DNA of 64,000 nucleotides, from the NCBI RefSeq assembly GCF_000153165.2, contig NC_014472.1:1919501-1983500 (forward strand), given 5' to 3'. The DNA comes from Maribacter sp. HTCC2170 (lineage in GTDB: Bacteria; Bacteroidota; Bacteroidia; Flavobacteriales; Flavobacteriaceae). The translations under genes were made by a program, and so were the position numbers. Within the stretch, counting starts at the first letter, position 1. Every line of letters begins with the position of its first letter. The notes under the pieces are model-generated. The model did no database searches. It was not told the DNA's origin and worked only from the letters and a program-made list of their open reading frames with translations. Below, piece by piece: positions 1,196 through 64,000 of the stretch.

Positions 1196-1714
1196 TTAAA
1201 ATCTAAACCCGAGTGAGAAACCAGCACGAAACATAAAGGTTTCTTGAAATACCTCTGGGTTTATGTTTCTTCCTAGTCCGGCGTTTACTTCAAGACTAAA
1301 TCGTTCACTTTGTGTCACCCATTTATTCCCAATCCCCAATCCTAAAGCTGTGGTGCTATAATCATTGTTGCGGAGACCAAGATTATTATCCGGAACCCTG
1401 TCTTCCCCTGTATAGTATAAGCCAAAAGCTTCGGCAAAAAATCCACTTCTTGGAACATAACCAAAATAGGCCCTTAAGTTGGGGCCAATACCAAAATTAC
1501 CATTGTAGTCAGTCGCGTCGCTATCAAAATATAGTGTTCCGCCGATACTGGTATCCTCATTAAAGAAATACTCATAGGAGCCTTCGACAGTACTACTTGC
1601 CAAGAACAATCCAATATTGAATTTTAGTTCATTATCATTATTGAATCTAGGATAGGCCTGAGCATTGGCCAAACTAAAACTCAATAATAAAACTACTACA
1701 CTAAGATTTTTCAT
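1196..1714 (-). CDS. Outer-membrane beta-barrel protein, DUF3575-like (copy 1)
   Basis: A 172-residue protein with a signal peptide ending in LANAQA and a small beta-barrel of about eight strands finishing in FSLGFRF. Conserved features shared with the downstream paralog are the ALGLGIGNKWVT strand, the NAGLGRNI strand and the terminal aromatic residue. It is the promoter-proximal gene of the pair; the roughly 165 bases upstream separate it from the divergent exonuclease gene. Small barrels of this kind are common in flavobacteria and have no assigned transport role; the sequence gives no sign of a substrate. Confidence 0.7.
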   Translation of the reverse strand: MKNLSVVVLLLSFSLANAQAYPRFNNDNELKFNIGLFLASSTVEGSYEYFFNEDTSIGGTLYFDSDATDYNGNFGIGPNLRAYFGYVPRSGFFAEAFGLYYTGEDRVPDNNLGLRNNDYSTTALGLGIGNKWVTQSERFSLEVNAGLGRNINPEVFQETFMFRAGFSLGFRF

Positions 1715-1879
1715 CGCCTATGCTTTTGATATTCCATTAGGATATCAAATCGTGTTCCAAAGTGATAAATTCTTAGGTTAAATGTTGATTTTTACCGCCA
1801 CCCCAAAGATTTGAGGTTTACTTTTAACAGAGGCAATCCAACAAAAAAACATTCGTTATTTTTAAGCAAAATTTGAAAG

Positions 1880-2641
1880 GTGAAAATAGTATCATACAAC
1901 GTAAATGGCATTCGCGCCGCAATCAACAAAGGTTTTTTGGATTGGTTGAAGGCAACTGACCCCGATGTAATATGCCTACAAGAAATAAAAGCAATGAAAG
2001 AACAATTAGATCTTTCTTTGTTCGAAGAAGCAGGTTACGCAAATAATTATTGGTACAGTGCTCAAAAAAAGGGCTATAGCGGAGTAGCAATATTGTCAAA
2101 AAAACAACCTGACCATGTTGAATACGGTACTGGGATTGATTATATGGATTTTGAAGGGAGAAACCTTCGTGCCGATTTTGATGGGGTATCCATCATGAGC
2201 CTGTACCTACCTTCTGGCACTAATATGGATCGATTGGAGTTTAAACTAAAATATATGGCTGAATTTCAACGGTATGTTGATGATTTAAGAAAGGCACATC
2301 CAAATTTGATTATTCTCGGAGATTATAATATTTGTCATGAAGCAATAGATATACATGATCCTGTAAGAAACAAAAAAGTATCTGGGTTTTTACCAGTAGA
2401 ACGAGAATGGATAGGTAGTTTTATTGAAAGCGGTTTCATTGACAGTTTTAGACATTTAAATAAGGAACCCCATAATTATACATGGTGGAGTTACCGGGCC
2501 AATGCCAGAAACAACAACAAGGGCTGGCGTTTGGATTATGGTATGGTAAGTGAGCCTCTTGAAAATAGACTAAAGCGTTCTGTGATCCTATCAGATGCCA
2601 GGCATAGTGACCATTGTCCTATTTTGGTTGAATTGGGTTAG
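1880..2641 (+). CDS. xth: Exodeoxyribonuclease III (AP endonuclease)
   Basis: A 253-residue enzyme of the exonuclease III family, which cuts the backbone at abasic sites and removes 3' blocking groups in base excision repair. The start codon is GTG; the protein opens directly with the family motif KIVSYNVNGIRAA (Asn7). Metal ligand Glu35 lies in LQEIKA, the catalytic Asp148/Asn150 in GDYN, and Asp244-His245 in the terminal SDHCPI motif. A WRLDYGMVS segment matches the substrate-binding loop. Length is normal. It is divergent from the barrel gene pair and followed after 23 bases by the FG-GAP gene. Confidence 0.95.
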   Translation: MKIVSYNVNGIRAAINKGFLDWLKATDPDVICLQEIKAMKEQLDLSLFEEAGYANNYWYSAQKKGYSGVAILSKKQPDHVEYGTGIDYMDFEGRNLRADFDGVSIMSLYLPSGTNMDRLEFKLKYMAEFQRYVDDLRKAHPNLIILGDYNICHEAIDIHDPVRNKKVSGFLPVEREWIGSFIESGFIDSFRHLNKEPHNYTWWSYRANARNNNKGWRLDYGMVSEPLENRLKRSVILSDARHSDHCPILVELG

Positions 2642-59002: not shown

Positions 59003-59905
59003 CTATGTATTTGAGGCTTCAGAAAGCAATGAATTTTGTTTTTGATTTAGTAAATCAATAAACTCATTCGGATTTTTTAAGTGGACTACTTGTTTGAAGC
59101 CATCTAAGGAGCTCTCAATATTCATGCCTCCTGAAACAGCAAGGGTGACAGTCGTGTCCTTATATAATGAGGTGATGAGTTTTTCAATTTTTGCAGGTCT
59201 TAGCATGGTAAACATTGTCAGCATTAAATGCGGTTTGGTAATTTCCAAAACATCTTTAATATTTTCTAGAGGCACATTTGACCCAAGATAAAATGTTCTC
59301 CAACCTAGTTCTTTGGCTATGTAGTTCGCCAATAATAACCCTATTTCATGATTTTCACCTTCCACTAAGTATAAAACAATGGTTGGGCTGGTTTCATCTT
59401 TTGATGGAATTGCATCAATTGCACTGTACATTTTCTGTTTAATAAGGTTAGAGATGAAGTGCTCCTGAGCTGGCATTGCTTTATTCGTACCCCATAATAC
59501 CCCAATATGATTCAGAAAGGGATACAATAGTTCTGTAATCGTCTTTAACAGCCCATGCTTGGCGATATACCTTTCTATTATCTCATTAAAGTCTATCTCG
59601 TTCATTTCCAACATACTTACTATTAAGGCATTTATGTCGTCCTGTGGAGTGGTATCCAAAAGAATTTTTGAAACTACCTCGTGTATTTGTTCATCCGTCA
59701 AAGTATCGATGTGTGATATGCGATAGCCGTTTCTGGTAAGAATACCAATATTGAGCAACTTACGAAGTTGATCATCTGTATAATACCTAATATTGGTTGC
59801 TGTCCTTTTAGGTACTATAAAACTATAACGCGATTCCCATTTTCTTAATGTATGGGCATTGATTCCTGTTATTGATACAATATCAGCCATTGAATAGTTC
59901 GACAT
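59003..59905 (-). CDS. CarH/LitR-type MerR regulator with B12-binding light-sensor domain
   Basis: A 300-residue regulator. Residues 1-70 are a MerR-type winged helix (SMADIVSITGINAHTLRKWE, TNIRYYTDDQLRKLLNIG). Residues 95-160 are the four-helix cap and 172-290 the Rossmann cobalamin domain. The CarH hallmark Wx9EH is intact (W138, E148, H149) and the lower axial His is present in ENHEIG (H186). In CarH, adenosylcobalamin holds a DNA-binding tetramer in the dark and light breaks it. I used the ATG at 59903-59905; a longer frame up to 60022 would cover the operators. It is divergent from the fasciclin and crt genes. Confidence 0.93.
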   Translation of the reverse strand: MSNYSMADIVSITGINAHTLRKWESRYSFIVPKRTATNIRYYTDDQLRKLLNIGILTRNGYRISHIDTLTDEQIHEVVSKILLDTTPQDDINALIVSMLEMNEIDFNEIIERYIAKHGLLKTITELLYPFLNHIGVLWGTNKAMPAQEHFISNLIKQKMYSAIDAIPSKDETSPTIVLYLVEGENHEIGLLLANYIAKELGWRTFYLGSNVPLENIKDVLEITKPHLMLTMFTMLRPAKIEKLITSLYKDTTVTLAVSGGMNIESSLDGFKQVVHLKNPNEFIDLLNQKQNSLLSEASNT

Positions 59906-59990: not shown

Positions 59991-60074
59991 ATGTCTAAAA
60001 AAAAGTAAAAAAAGTTGGACATATAAAAAAAATGTTATACTCTTGTCTAAGTAAAAACAAAAAAGATTAGACAA
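59991..60074. promoter_or_regulatory. Paired palindromic operators on the fasciclin/crt promoter, candidate CarH sites
   Basis: Two inverted repeats have the same design: ATGTCTAA-N16-TTGGACAT (59991-60022, 7 of 8 bases paired) and TTGTCTAA-N16-TTAGACAA (60043-60074, perfect). Consensus WTGTCTAA-N16-TTRGACAW, centres 52 bases apart. Between them TTG (60015-60017), 20 bases and TACTCTTG (60038-60045) form a -33/-7 promoter for the fasciclin gene; the -33 lies in the right arm of the first palindrome and the -7 ends in the left arm of the second. A bound regulator would cover both elements. Confidence 0.75.
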
Positions 60075-60092: not shown

Positions 60093-61979
60093 ATGAAAAA
60101 GAAGATTAGTTATTTATTTATGTTCATCGCAGTATCCTTATTCACGTATTCGTGTAGTGAGGATGATGACCAACCAGTGATTGAAATGGAACAAGAGACA
60201 ATGAACATTGTCGAGGCCGCTCAGGGTACTGATGCCCTGAGCAATCTTGTTGCTGCTTTGGCTAAAGCGGATGAAAGCGGATCTAACGACCTTATCGCAA
60301 CGCTTAGCGATGAAACTGGGACTTTTACGGTATTGGCCCCGACTAATGATGCTTTCGTGGACCTTTTGGCAAGGTTGGATGGATTTGATTCGCTTGATGA
60401 TTTTAACTCTGAACAATTACAAGACCTCTTAGCCAGTATTTTGGCCTATCATGTAGTGAGTGGTGCTTCTGTGACATCTGGTGATCTTACAGAGGGTCAG
60501 GTTATTACAACTGTCCAAGGAGAGGAATTAACGGTTAGTTTAGACGGCGGTGCTTCTTTTATGGATGCAGCGGGAGAATATGCAATGGTTACAACGGCTG
60601 ATGTTGCTACTAACAATGGTACGGTACATTTAATTGATAAAATACTTTTACCACAAGCTGCATTGGATGCCTTAAGTGATATTCTTTTGGTTTCGATTAC
60701 TGATTTGGCCATTGCCACCCCAGGTTTGGAAAACTTGGTCGCTGCCTTAGTAGCTGCAGATGGAGACCTGCCAACTGTTTTGGCCGGTGAAGGGCCGTTC
60801 ACTGTATTTGCGCCAACTAACGATGCTTTTGCAACATTTTTGGCTGACAATAATTTTGCTGAACTAGGTGATGTACCAGTGGATGTATTGACTCAAGTAT
60901 TATTGAACCATGTTGTAAGTGGTAATAATTTATCTACTGATTTAATGACAGGATATATCTCAACTCTTTCTACCGCCGGAGCGGGAGGCAACAATTTAAG
61001 TATGCTGGTAGATACTGCAGACGGAGTTAGTTTGAACGGATGTTCTACCGTTACCGCGGCAGATAATAAAGCCATTAATGGGGTAGTACATATTGTTGAC
61101 GCAGTTATAGGTTTGCCCAATATCGTAGACCATGCAGTGGCAAATAGTGATTTAACAGAATTGGTTGGAGCATTAACTGCTGGCGGCAATACCACTTTTA
61201 CGGATTTATTATCAGATGATGCTACTGACTTTACTGTCTTTGCTCCTGTAAATGCCGCTTTTTCAGCTTTTACAAACCCTATGTCAAATGAATTGAATAC
61301 CATTTTGGCAAACCATGTTATTGTTGGTGCTGCCGCTTTTTCATCAGGGTTGACAAATTCATATGTGAGTACGGCAGCTACTAATGAAGATGGAGACAAT
61401 TTAAGTATGTACATAAATACGGACGACGGAGTATCTCTGAACGGTTCGAGTAATGTTGCAGCTGCGGATATTGTAGCTACAAACGGGGTCATCCATGCTG
61501 TTGATGCGGTGATTGATTTACCAACATTGGTGACTTTTGCAACTGCAGATGCGACTTTTAGCCCACTTGTTGCTGCTTTGACTGAAGGCACACCTGATAC
61601 CGACTTTGTTTCTGTACTTAATGGCGAAGGACCTTACACGGTTTTTGCACCTACAGATGTTGCTTTTCAAGCATTATTGGATAGTAATATGGACTGGGAT
61701 GGCGTAACCGATATTGATGAAATGTTATTGACATCTGTATTAAACCACCATGTGGCAAACGGCAACGTTCGATCTGGTGACTTAACCGATGGTATGGCAC
61801 CAGCCACATTGGAAGGTGATAATATAACAATCAATTTACCAGGTACAGGAGATAATATTGCCGACATCACTGATGGAGCTGGAAATACTGGTATTGGTGT
61901 TGTTGTTGTAGATGTACAAGCAAACAATGGTGTAATACATGTAGTGAATCAAGTTATGATTCCCGATACGAGCAACTAG
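60093..61979 (+). CDS. Fasciclin-domain lipoprotein, four FAS1 repeats
   Basis: A 628-residue lipoprotein: lipobox TYSC (Cys21) followed by acidic residues, then four FAS1 domains at about 38-195, 198-345, 346-482 and 483-625. Each holds the signatures FTVLAPTNDAF or FTVFAPTNDAF (third FTVFAPVNAAF, fourth YTVFAPTDVAF) and a later NG-VHxVD strand. FAS1 domains mediate adhesion and, in some marine organisms, carotenoid binding. It is the first rightward gene of the CarH locus and lies directly before crtI, so a role in carotenoid or surface protection is plausible but not shown. Confidence 0.92.
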   Translation: MKKKISYLFMFIAVSLFTYSCSEDDDQPVIEMEQETMNIVEAAQGTDALSNLVAALAKADESGSNDLIATLSDETGTFTVLAPTNDAFVDLLARLDGFDSLDDFNSEQLQDLLASILAYHVVSGASVTSGDLTEGQVITTVQGEELTVSLDGGASFMDAAGEYAMVTTADVATNNGTVHLIDKILLPQAALDALSDILLVSITDLAIATPGLENLVAALVAADGDLPTVLAGEGPFTVFAPTNDAFATFLADNNFAELGDVPVDVLTQVLLNHVVSGNNLSTDLMTGYISTLSTAGAGGNNLSMLVDTADGVSLNGCSTVTAADNKAINGVVHIVDAVIGLPNIVDHAVANSDLTELVGALTAGGNTTFTDLLSDDATDFTVFAPVNAAFSAFTNPMSNELNTILANHVIVGAAAFSSGLTNSYVSTAATNEDGDNLSMYINTDDGVSLNGSSNVAAADIVATNGVIHAVDAVIDLPTLVTFATADATFSPLVAALTEGTPDTDFVSVLNGEGPYTVFAPTDVAFQALLDSNMDWDGVTDIDEMLLTSVLNHHVANGNVRSGDLTDGMAPATLEGDNITINLPGTGDNIADITDGAGNTGIGVVVVDVQANNGVIHVVNQVMIPDTSN

Positions 61980-62124: not shown

Positions 62125-63588
62125 ATGAACAATAAAAAGATCATCATAATTGGTTCTGGATTTTCGTCCCTTGCAGCCAGTTGCTATTTGGCTAAGGCAG
62201 GTTTTGGGGTCCAAATTTTTGAGAAGAATCCAGAGATTGGCGGAAGGGCCCGTCAAAAAAAGAGAGATGGTTTTGTGTTTGACATTGGCCCAACTTTTTA
62301 TTGGATGCCAGATGTCTTTGAAAGCTTCTTCAGTGATTTTGATAAAAAACCGAGTGACTATTATCAATTAAAAAAATTAGACCCTGCCTATCAAGTATAT
62401 TTTGGGGTTAAAGATTCAATTAAAGTATCAGGTTCTATAGAGGAAACAATGAACACCTTTGAAACAATTGAACCTGGAAGCAAGAAAGCTTTACGCAGGT
62501 TTTTATCAAAGGCGGGCAAGAATTATAAAATTGCCATTAAGGATCTAGTATATAAACCAGCAGAAAGTATCTTGGAGATTATCACTCCAACCACCATGCT
62601 AAAGATTACTGATTTTTTCAGAACGATAAAAAAACAGGTGGCTTCTTACGTAAAAGATGAAAAGCTTAGAAAAATAATGGAGTTTCCAGTACTTTTTTTA
62701 GGTGCAAAACCAGGAAATACCCCTTCTTTTTACAATTTCATGAACTATGCTGATTTTGAACTGGGGACTTGGCACCCCATGGGAGGCATGTATGAAGTGG
62801 TTGAGGCGATGACGAATTTGGCTTTGGAATTAGGAGTTGAAATCGTGACAGACTCTCCTGTTCAATCTATTCGTACAACTGATAACAATGTTGAAGGTAT
62901 ACAAGTAGGTGATAAGTTTTATTCCTGTGATATCCTGTTAAGTGGAGCTGATTATCACCATACAGAATCACTTTTACCTGTTAATAGAAGACAGTATAAA
63001 GAAAGTTATTGGAGTAAAAAGATTTTTGCCCCATCAGCATTGCTCTTTTTCGTTGGCTTCAAAAAGAAGTTAAAAAATGTTTCGCACCACACCTTGTTTT
63101 TTGATACCGATTTTGATGCGCATGCCAAAACCATATATGATACTAAAGAATGGTCAGAGGACCCATTGTTCTACGCAAGTTTTCCTAGCCTGACGGATAA
63201 TGAAAGTGCCCCGGAGGGAAAAGAGGCAGGTATCTTCTTGATACCCATAGCACCGGATCTGGAGGATAACCCGACTATACGTGAGAAGTATTTTAATCAG
63301 ATAATTCAAAGAATGGAGGATTTAACTGAGCAAAATTTACACGCTATGGTTGAGTTTAAAGAATCTTATTGCGTAAATGATTTTAAATCGGACTATAATT
63401 CTTACAAGGGTAATGCCTATGGTTTGGCAAATACACTAACACAGACACATATTCTGCGCCCTAGATTGAGAAGTAAGAAAGTTGATAATTTATTTTTTTG
63501 CGGACAATTGACAGTACCAGGTCCAGGGGTTCCCCCATCCTTGATTTCAGGGAAAATAGTCAGCGAATTAATTTCAAAATATTATTAA
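62125..63588 (+). CDS. crtI: Phytoene desaturase (CrtI family)
   Basis: A 487-residue FAD-dependent carotenoid desaturase. KIIIIGSGFSSLAASCYLAK is the dinucleotide fold, with FEKNPEIGGRARQ and FDIGPTFYWMPDVFESFF downstream. The CrtI C-terminal signature LFFCGQLTVPGPGVPPSLIS is present. It converts phytoene to lycopene in the membrane. I used the ATG at 62125: the frame is open to 62062, but the extra residues are a spurious hydrophobic stretch before the Rossmann motif. crtB begins one base after its stop, so the two are translationally coupled. Confidence 0.93.
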   Translation: MNNKKIIIIGSGFSSLAASCYLAKAGFGVQIFEKNPEIGGRARQKKRDGFVFDIGPTFYWMPDVFESFFSDFDKKPSDYYQLKKLDPAYQVYFGVKDSIKVSGSIEETMNTFETIEPGSKKALRRFLSKAGKNYKIAIKDLVYKPAESILEIITPTTMLKITDFFRTIKKQVASYVKDEKLRKIMEFPVLFLGAKPGNTPSFYNFMNYADFELGTWHPMGGMYEVVEAMTNLALELGVEIVTDSPVQSIRTTDNNVEGIQVGDKFYSCDILLSGADYHHTESLLPVNRRQYKESYWSKKIFAPSALLFFVGFKKKLKNVSHHTLFFDTDFDAHAKTIYDTKEWSEDPLFYASFPSLTDNESAPEGKEAGIFLIPIAPDLEDNPTIREKYFNQIIQRMEDLTEQNLHAMVEFKESYCVNDFKSDYNSYKGNAYGLANTLTQTHILRPRLRSKKVDNLFFCGQLTVPGPGVPPSLISGKIVSELISKYY

Positions 63589-63589
63589 A

Positions 63590-64000
63590 ATGAAAAAGCT
63601 TTTTGATGATTCCAGTTACAGTTGTAGCAAGTTGGTGACAAATACATATAGCACTTCATTTTCCTCCGGGATAAAGATGTTCGCCCCATCTATAAGGCCT
63701 GCGATTTATGCGATTTATGGATTTGTACGGTACGCTGACGAAATTGTGGATACATTTAATGAATACGATCAGGAGTTGCTTTTTAATGAGTTCAAGGAAG
63801 ATTATAATAAAGCAATTGAAAGAAGAATAAGTCTTAACCCCATTCTAAATGCATTTCAGGAAATTGTACATAATTATGATTTACACCCATATGTAGAAGA
63901 TTTTCTTGGGAGTATGGAAAGTGACTTGTACAAAAAGGAATATAGTTCCAAACAGGATTTTGTTAAATATATTTATGGATCTGCTGATGTTGTAGGGTTA
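63590..64000 (+). CDS. crtB: Phytoene synthase (CrtB), 5' end (partial)
   Basis: The first 137 codons of a squalene/phytoene synthase: KLFDDSSYSCSKLVTNTYST, FAPSIRPAIYAIYGFVRYAD with the first aspartate-rich motif DEIVD, then YVEDFLGSMESDL and YIYGSADVVGL. It couples two geranylgeranyl diphosphates to phytoene, the substrate of CrtI. The gene runs out of the window; full length should be about 280 residues. It follows crtI by one base. Confidence 0.93.
   Translation, partial: MKKLFDDSSYSCSKLVTNTYSTSFSSGIKMFAPSIRPAIYAIYGFVRYADEIVDTFNEYDQELLFNEFKEDYNKAIERRISLNPILNAFQEIVHNYDLHPYVEDFLGSMESDLYKKEYSSKQDFVKYIYGSADVVGL

Follow-up and report, generated by a model that had tools for sequence, protein, structure and literature searches.

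The window analyzed here is a 64,000-nucleotide stretch of the Maribacter sp. HTCC2170 genome. Near its right end, two palindromes lie between a gene for a CarH-type regulator, which points away from them to the left, and a fasciclin gene followed by crtI-like and crtB-like genes to the right. The features are as follows (class A is one of two regulator classes in the family, defined below).

59003-59905, minus strand: CarH-type regulator of class A, ~300 aa (Pfam, structure search, AlphaFold model, fold search and motif columns)
59991-60022, no strand: putative operator dyad 1, arms 59991-59998 and 60015-60022
60015-60017, plus strand: TTG of a -33-like element, within the right arm of dyad 1 (sequence and class A comparison)
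60038-60045, plus strand: -7-like element TACTCTTG, its TTG forming the start of dyad 2 (consensus comparison)
60043-60074, no strand: putative operator dyad 2, arms 60043-60050 and 60067-60074
60093-61979, plus strand: fasciclin-domain lipoprotein-like gene, the first behind the dyads (ORF list and Pfam)
62125-63588, plus strand: crtI-like phytoene desaturase (the ORF starts at GTG 62062; an ATG is at 62125)
63590-64000, plus strand: crtB-like phytoene synthase, cut by the window end (ORF list and Pfam)

The dyads read ATGTCTAA-N16-TTGGACAT (59991-60022) and TTGTCTAA-N16-TTAGACAA (60043-60074), with a centre-to-centre distance of 52 bp. A preliminary description of this DNA had reported the motif WTGTCTAA-N16-TTRGACAW twice between a CarH-type regulator and fasciclin-crtI-crtB; both copies are confirmed at these coordinates, and the identity of the flanking genes is borne out by matches of the regulator to MerR_1 and B12-binding_2 and by the Pfam matches of its neighbours. 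The regulator probably starts at the ATG at 59905; the longer ORF start at 60022 falls within dyad 1. The full motif is expected by chance at a mean of 0.02 per window, and the three strand matches seen were reached by none of 100 shuffles. Its core, TGTCTAA-N16-TTRGACA, is present only at these two places in the 3.87-Mb genome, in which the same pattern read backwards as a control occurs at one place per strand. Allowing at most one mismatch yields four places, namely the two window dyads, a site upstream of a photolyase gene and C1:3731949; at two mismatches there are 30 matches in this genome and no excess over the control (36). A chance origin of the dyads is ruled out by the shuffles, the genome scan and the class A and class B counts given below.

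By the sequence and fold features tested, the window protein is a CarH. The Rossmann domain PF02310 gives no Pfam match in it, and the AlphaFold model (built from a 10-sequence alignment, mean pLDDT 87) contains a MerR winged helix, a B12-binding helix bundle and a Rossmann-like C-terminal domain. The best two hits in a sequence search of solved structures are 3whp, a 'probable transcriptional regulator' (E 1.7e-17), and CarH 5c8d (E 2e-17); a fold search with the model returns CarH chains as its first 12 matches, the best being 5c8e/5c8d, CarH of Thermus thermophilus, although the match holds domain by domain, since whole-chain rmsd is 10-17 Å in the top matches. MliR was ruled out as the identity of the regulator, as it is a MerR-like protein without an effector domain (PMC9478572).

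A homologue of the regulator is present at E<=1e-30 in 319 of the 397 genomes forming the family set. Class A consists of the 27 genomes scoring below 1e-80, that of the window included, and the next best score, 3.0e-52, belongs to class B, the commoner subfamily. Class A branches off with a support of 0.998 in a tree built from 27 proteins of this class and 54 of class B. All 27 class A and all 54 class B proteins retain the Trp, Glu and His of W-x9-EH together with the Glu and His of ExHxxG; the last Gly of ExHxxG is retained in 23/27 and 51/54, respectively, four class A proteins having Ala instead. A PF01923 cobalamin adenosyltransferase is encoded in 27/27 class A genomes versus 9/14 control genomes, and is weak support for a B12-dependent reading because so many controls also have one. 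The CarH model on which our proposal is built is one in which AdoCbl holds the oligomer together in the dark and light breaks it (PMC8156234), and by analogy the window regulator would form an AdoCbl-dependent dark oligomer and lose DNA binding in the light. It could instead repress via the dyads without control by light or AdoCbl, so that the locus would be no light switch itself, in the manner of CarA of Myxococcus xanthus, a B12-independent relative (PMC9304148). The Ala substitutions could be taken to favour this, but with W-x9-EH and the Glu and His of ExHxxG intact throughout class A, and with photolyase and carotenoid genes among the targets, we consider it unlikely.

Linkage of the CarH-type regulator to carotenoid genes is seen in both classes. 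At class A loci a fasciclin gene is divergent from carH in 25/27, and in the remaining genomes, G184 and G357, crtI lies directly at carH in its place. Matches to both crtI and crtB are on the fasciclin side at 19/27 loci, a count affected by stretches that end early and by two loci with crtI/crtB on the carH side. Class B loci have crtI and crtB behind carH and on the carH strand in 12 of the 14 examined. Two genomes of the window's own genus are in the set and both have class B only, indicating that class A is patchy in its distribution. Both classes occur together in G135, where a class A-type site is close to the end of the class B carH (L098, G135:C5:432158).

Absence of the two palindromes from close relatives would, according to the preliminary description, have counted against its reading; we take close relatives here as relatives of the regulator because the same-genus genomes carry class B only. 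Class A carH regions were searched for two sites, each matching at least 11 of the 16 arm positions, at a centre-to-centre distance of 48-58 bp. The pair is kept in 27/27, so that this comparison did not refute the reading; the centres are 51-54 bp apart, the spacers are 16 or 17, and the weakest site scores are 13/16 (at L081, L085 and L087). Family-wide, the exact pattern by itself is a weak signal, being present in 36/397 genomes versus 24 with the read-backwards control, and it separates the genomes only by class (17/27 class A genomes and 19/370 others).

We also scanned 27 class A and 54 class B regions for TGTNNA-N(g)-TNNACA at gaps g of 0 to 40. In the class A regions, which are not independent of the finding, g=19 occurs in 23/27 and g=18 in 20/27, the median over gaps being 1. 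At the class B carH's own promoter, TGTNNA-N18-TNNACA is present in 43/54 regions and g=19 in 3/54, with a median of 0; this geometry had been spotted by eye in 14 loci before the scan tested it, and among class B regions fetched after the idea arose g=18 is present in 32/40. Lesser peaks are at divergent gap 33 (9), convergent gap 22 (17) and direct gap 8 (10) in class A, the convergent gap of 22 being the distance between the two dyads, and at divergent gap 26 (7), convergent gap 1 (11) and direct gap 25 (9) in class B. Outside the family the dyad is present in 8 of 26 class-level loci, mostly those of closer homologues, where the 26 are four loci from a scan of named organisms plus 22 from the best 30 of 184 genomes with a match; the four are distant, none is class A, and the dyad is at the carH start in 0/4.

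At class B sites the right arm commonly overlaps the carH start codon, as ATGAACAA. Codon 2 of these genes is AAC in 31 and AAT in 3, and codon 3 is AAT in 20 and AAC in 14 (10/54 lack an ATG by the rule used), whereas AAC accounts for 326/840 Asn codons inside class B genes. Because of this AAC bias at codon 2, the start-region dyad does not reflect protein conservation alone. Conservation of a promoter alone was likewise rejected, as it cannot account for the outer arms of the class A pair or for the class B AAC bias. The N-terminus of class B CarH has apparently been shaped by the DNA site that its codons overlap (L095-L102, L216-L253).

The arms contain the half-site TnnACA, as TTAGACAW or TTAAACAA. 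Outward TGT...ACA half-sites read by a MerR-like winged helix are also features of GlnR and TnrA operators, but those half-sites are about one helical turn apart, versus more than two here, and GlnR and TnrA have no B12 domain. Among CarH proteins, those of T. thermophilus and Bacillus megaterium are alike in domain order, fold, W-x9-EH and ExHxxG, and their operators are alike in the TnnACA half-site and in lying over carotenoid promoter elements (PMC9304148, PMC8156234). Those operators, however, are three or four tandem 11-bp direct repeats, which the CarH oligomer grips in crystals, whereas the flavobacterial ones have two outward half-sites 24-25 bp apart without an 11-bp register, class A loci having two such dyads and class B loci one; the preliminary description likewise did not recognise the operator form from described CarH sites. 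CarA and CarH of M. xanthus and relatives have a ~55-bp operator in which two inverted repeats were proposed, one of them over the -35 region, but these show no conservation and more recent data point to direct repeats (PMC9304148), unlike the class A dyads, which are kept in all 27. Operator plasticity has already been reported for myxobacterial CarH.

This reinterpretation of the CarA palindromes, together with the tolerance of described CarH operators for degenerate pseudorepeats (PMC9304148), raises the possibility that the flavobacterial proteins too bind through ordinary 11-bp direct repeats, the palindrome being the visible part of a degenerate direct-repeat operator. The gap scan rejects this reading: at gap 5, which corresponds to the 11-bp register, 0/27 class A regions have a direct TnnACA pair on either strand, and the class B counts for the two strands are 1/54 and 0/54, compared with 43/54 for the dyad. 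The arm distances of 24-25 and 52 bp are also no multiples of 11. We regard the direct-repeat reading as quite improbable.

The dyads at carH cover putative promoter elements in both classes. In flavobacteria the -33 element is TTG, and at 23/27 class A loci dyad 1 has a TTG among the first four bases of its right arm (TTTG at 13/27). The flavobacterial -7 consensus is TAnnTTTG (PMC9723704), so the -7-like box of the window differs from it by one mismatch; an exact TAnnTTTG is completed by the left arm of dyad 2 at 24/27 class A loci, and by the left arm of 37/43 class B sites. On these comparisons the promoter overlap proposed in the preliminary description largely holds for the window, in that the right arm of dyad 1 contains the putative -33 TTG and the left arm of dyad 2 overlaps a probable -7 element, but the latter is an imperfect box. 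The TTG and -7 box are 18-20 bp apart at class A loci, and since MerR relatives activate long-spacer promoters the regulator could conceivably be a MerR-type activator of such a promoter, switched by light or B12 status; however, 18-20 bp between these elements is normal for this phylum, and both the -7 box and the start region lie under the dyads, which in class B reach the start codon. Placement relative to the promoter elements also varies among targets, and because of this and of the promoter coverage steric repression fits better than activation from a fixed position, which makes the activator a very unlikely alternative.

Base 4 of the half-site tracks residue 22 of the regulator, Lys occurring with G and Ile, Val or Met mostly with A. 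Where a class A protein has Lys at this position, the 96 arms have G at base 4 in 88 cases, T in 8 and A in 0. Three class A loci encode Ile or Val instead, and their 12 arms divide into A 7, G 4 and T 1. The 92 class B arms, which come from 46 of the 54 loci after eight lacking a full pair were dropped, have A in 90 cases and G in 2. Of the three class A exceptions, L081 and L085 belong to one genus and are nested in class A, and L091 is basal, which makes at least two lineages; Fisher tests of the association take no account of relatedness. The covariation ties the regulators to the sites. Residue 22 is within a helix predicted at 18-27 of the model (with an offset of one residue), and from the MerR fold this would be the helix that reads the DNA. 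Positions 4, 6, 20 and 62 of the DNA-binding domain also distinguish the classes, and position 1 is flagged as well, but class B rows begin there at differing places.

In class A (27 genomes, of which 22 have any match), the pattern TGTCYAA-N16/17-TTDGACAW gives 51 forward matches, versus 10 for the control; in 27 class B genomes it gives 3, versus 4. The distinct places number 57 and 5, respectively, and 28 of the 57 are away from carH. ORF calls on 27 of these 28 put 22 outside and five inside ORFs, two of the five (L116 and L142) being inside only via an early alternative start; of the five places in class B genomes, four are inside ORFs. At 23 non-carH sites, an exact TAnnTTTG overlaps the left arm or is just downstream in 10, and by the same rule was not found at the other 13, the photolyase site of the window genome included.

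A photolyase homologue is present in 27/27 class A genomes, and a strict site lies at most 10 kb upstream on the sense side in 12 of them (the window genome, G357, G168, G345, G261, G038, G262, G040, G328, G098, G066 and G230), the remaining 15 having no strict site there. Several of these sites precede TetR, ABC1-kinase and SDR/DUF2867 genes. A matrix built from the carH sites, applied within 1.5 kb of matches, adds G184 (photolyase) and G203 (SDR), and places sites of at least 14 bits just upstream of 11 of 14 TetR homologues, against a background of 12 such matches in 212,672 bases that come partly from class A genomes. Further targets by Pfam are fasciclin genes away from carH (four sites, two of them in G184 and G357, the genomes without fasciclin beside carH), folE/PTPS (three) and Porph_ging proteins (three). 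The window genome has no TetR, ABC1 or SDR homologues at the thresholds used, and its third site precedes a 164-aa ORF without a Pfam match and then photolyase.

Several loci have features of their own. The 164-aa ORF (L139, G000:C1:2629437-2633468, ORF 1497-1991, minus strand) lies between the third site and photolyase, and a similar small protein with the same MKLYQL start is behind a site in G357 (L116). A TetR_C_23 regulator and an ABC1/UbiB-like kinase head light-linked clusters behind a dyad (L113, L122, L143 and L112). In L108 (G135:C3:512424-516453, near 2001-2683) a weak PF01923 match is ~160 bp from a class A-type site, but on the wrong side to be its target, and in L123 (G345:C8:44875-47409, ~2000-2535) such a site is upstream of an ORF of at least 148 aa that runs to the contig end and has no Pfam match.

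A further alternative is that carH is a bystander next to operators of some other regulator. In its favour, the evidence for binding by CarH is indirect and the recurrent TetR target could have an operator of its own. We find it hardly credible: base 4 of the site covaries with a residue of the CarH recognition helix, class B genomes without class A show the class A pattern only at background level but have their own dyad at carH, and a TetR homologue (E<=1e-40) is absent from 13/27 class A genomes, including that of the window.

The best explanation, to which we assign a probability of about 0.8, is that the palindromes are operators of the adjacent CarH-type regulator, which would act as an AdoCbl-dependent repressor over the promoter in the dark and be released by light; binding, repression, dependence on light and AdoCbl, the oligomeric state on DNA and the placement of the promoter are what we infer from these comparisons. 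Each dyad would present two outward-pointing TnnACA half-sites (TTAGACAW) 24-25 bp apart, and the two dyads, separated by 52 bp or about five helical turns, would be on one face of the DNA. CarH loaded with AdoCbl would occupy both dyads in the dark, covering the -33 and -7 elements and likely the transcription start, such that fasciclin-crtI-crtB would be off. Light would split AdoCbl, the oligomer would fall apart and transcription would start, in keeping with the light-switched fasciclin and carotenoid unit predicted in the preliminary description. Single dyads elsewhere would extend this control to a photolyase operon and further genes for protection from light.

A broader proposal, which we hold somewhat more probable than its opposite, is that in the Flavobacteriaceae and near relatives CarH binds as a two-fold symmetric assembly on outward TnnACA dyads 24 bp apart rather than head-to-tail, that the dyad is fused to the sigma-A -7 box, that a Lys/Ile switch at one recognition-helix residue parts the codes TTAGACA and TTAAACA, and that the Lys clade employs its code across a broader set of light-stress genes, namely those for carotenoids, photolyase, pterins and fasciclin. 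Three observations go beyond the preliminary description: the dyad geometry of class B, the sites at photolyase genes and the residue-base covariation. Light-induced carotenoids have been described in Chryseobacterium, with the regulator only guessed (PMC7064467). In searches of a CC-licensed PMC library we found no description of a flavobacterial CarH operator, and the operator terms looked for in PMC9758184 were not found in it.

As the reference B12 photoreceptor, which also serves as an optogenetic tool, CarH is considered to be marked by head-to-tail binding to direct repeats. A dyad operator across two clades would mean that the photoreceptor sits differently on DNA in these bacteria, or that its oligomer differs. 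The operator code would have two specificities, and a single residue may decide between them. The sites together would be a first light-regulon map for a large bacterial group, including unexpected fasciclin, pterin and TetR-ABC1 genes.
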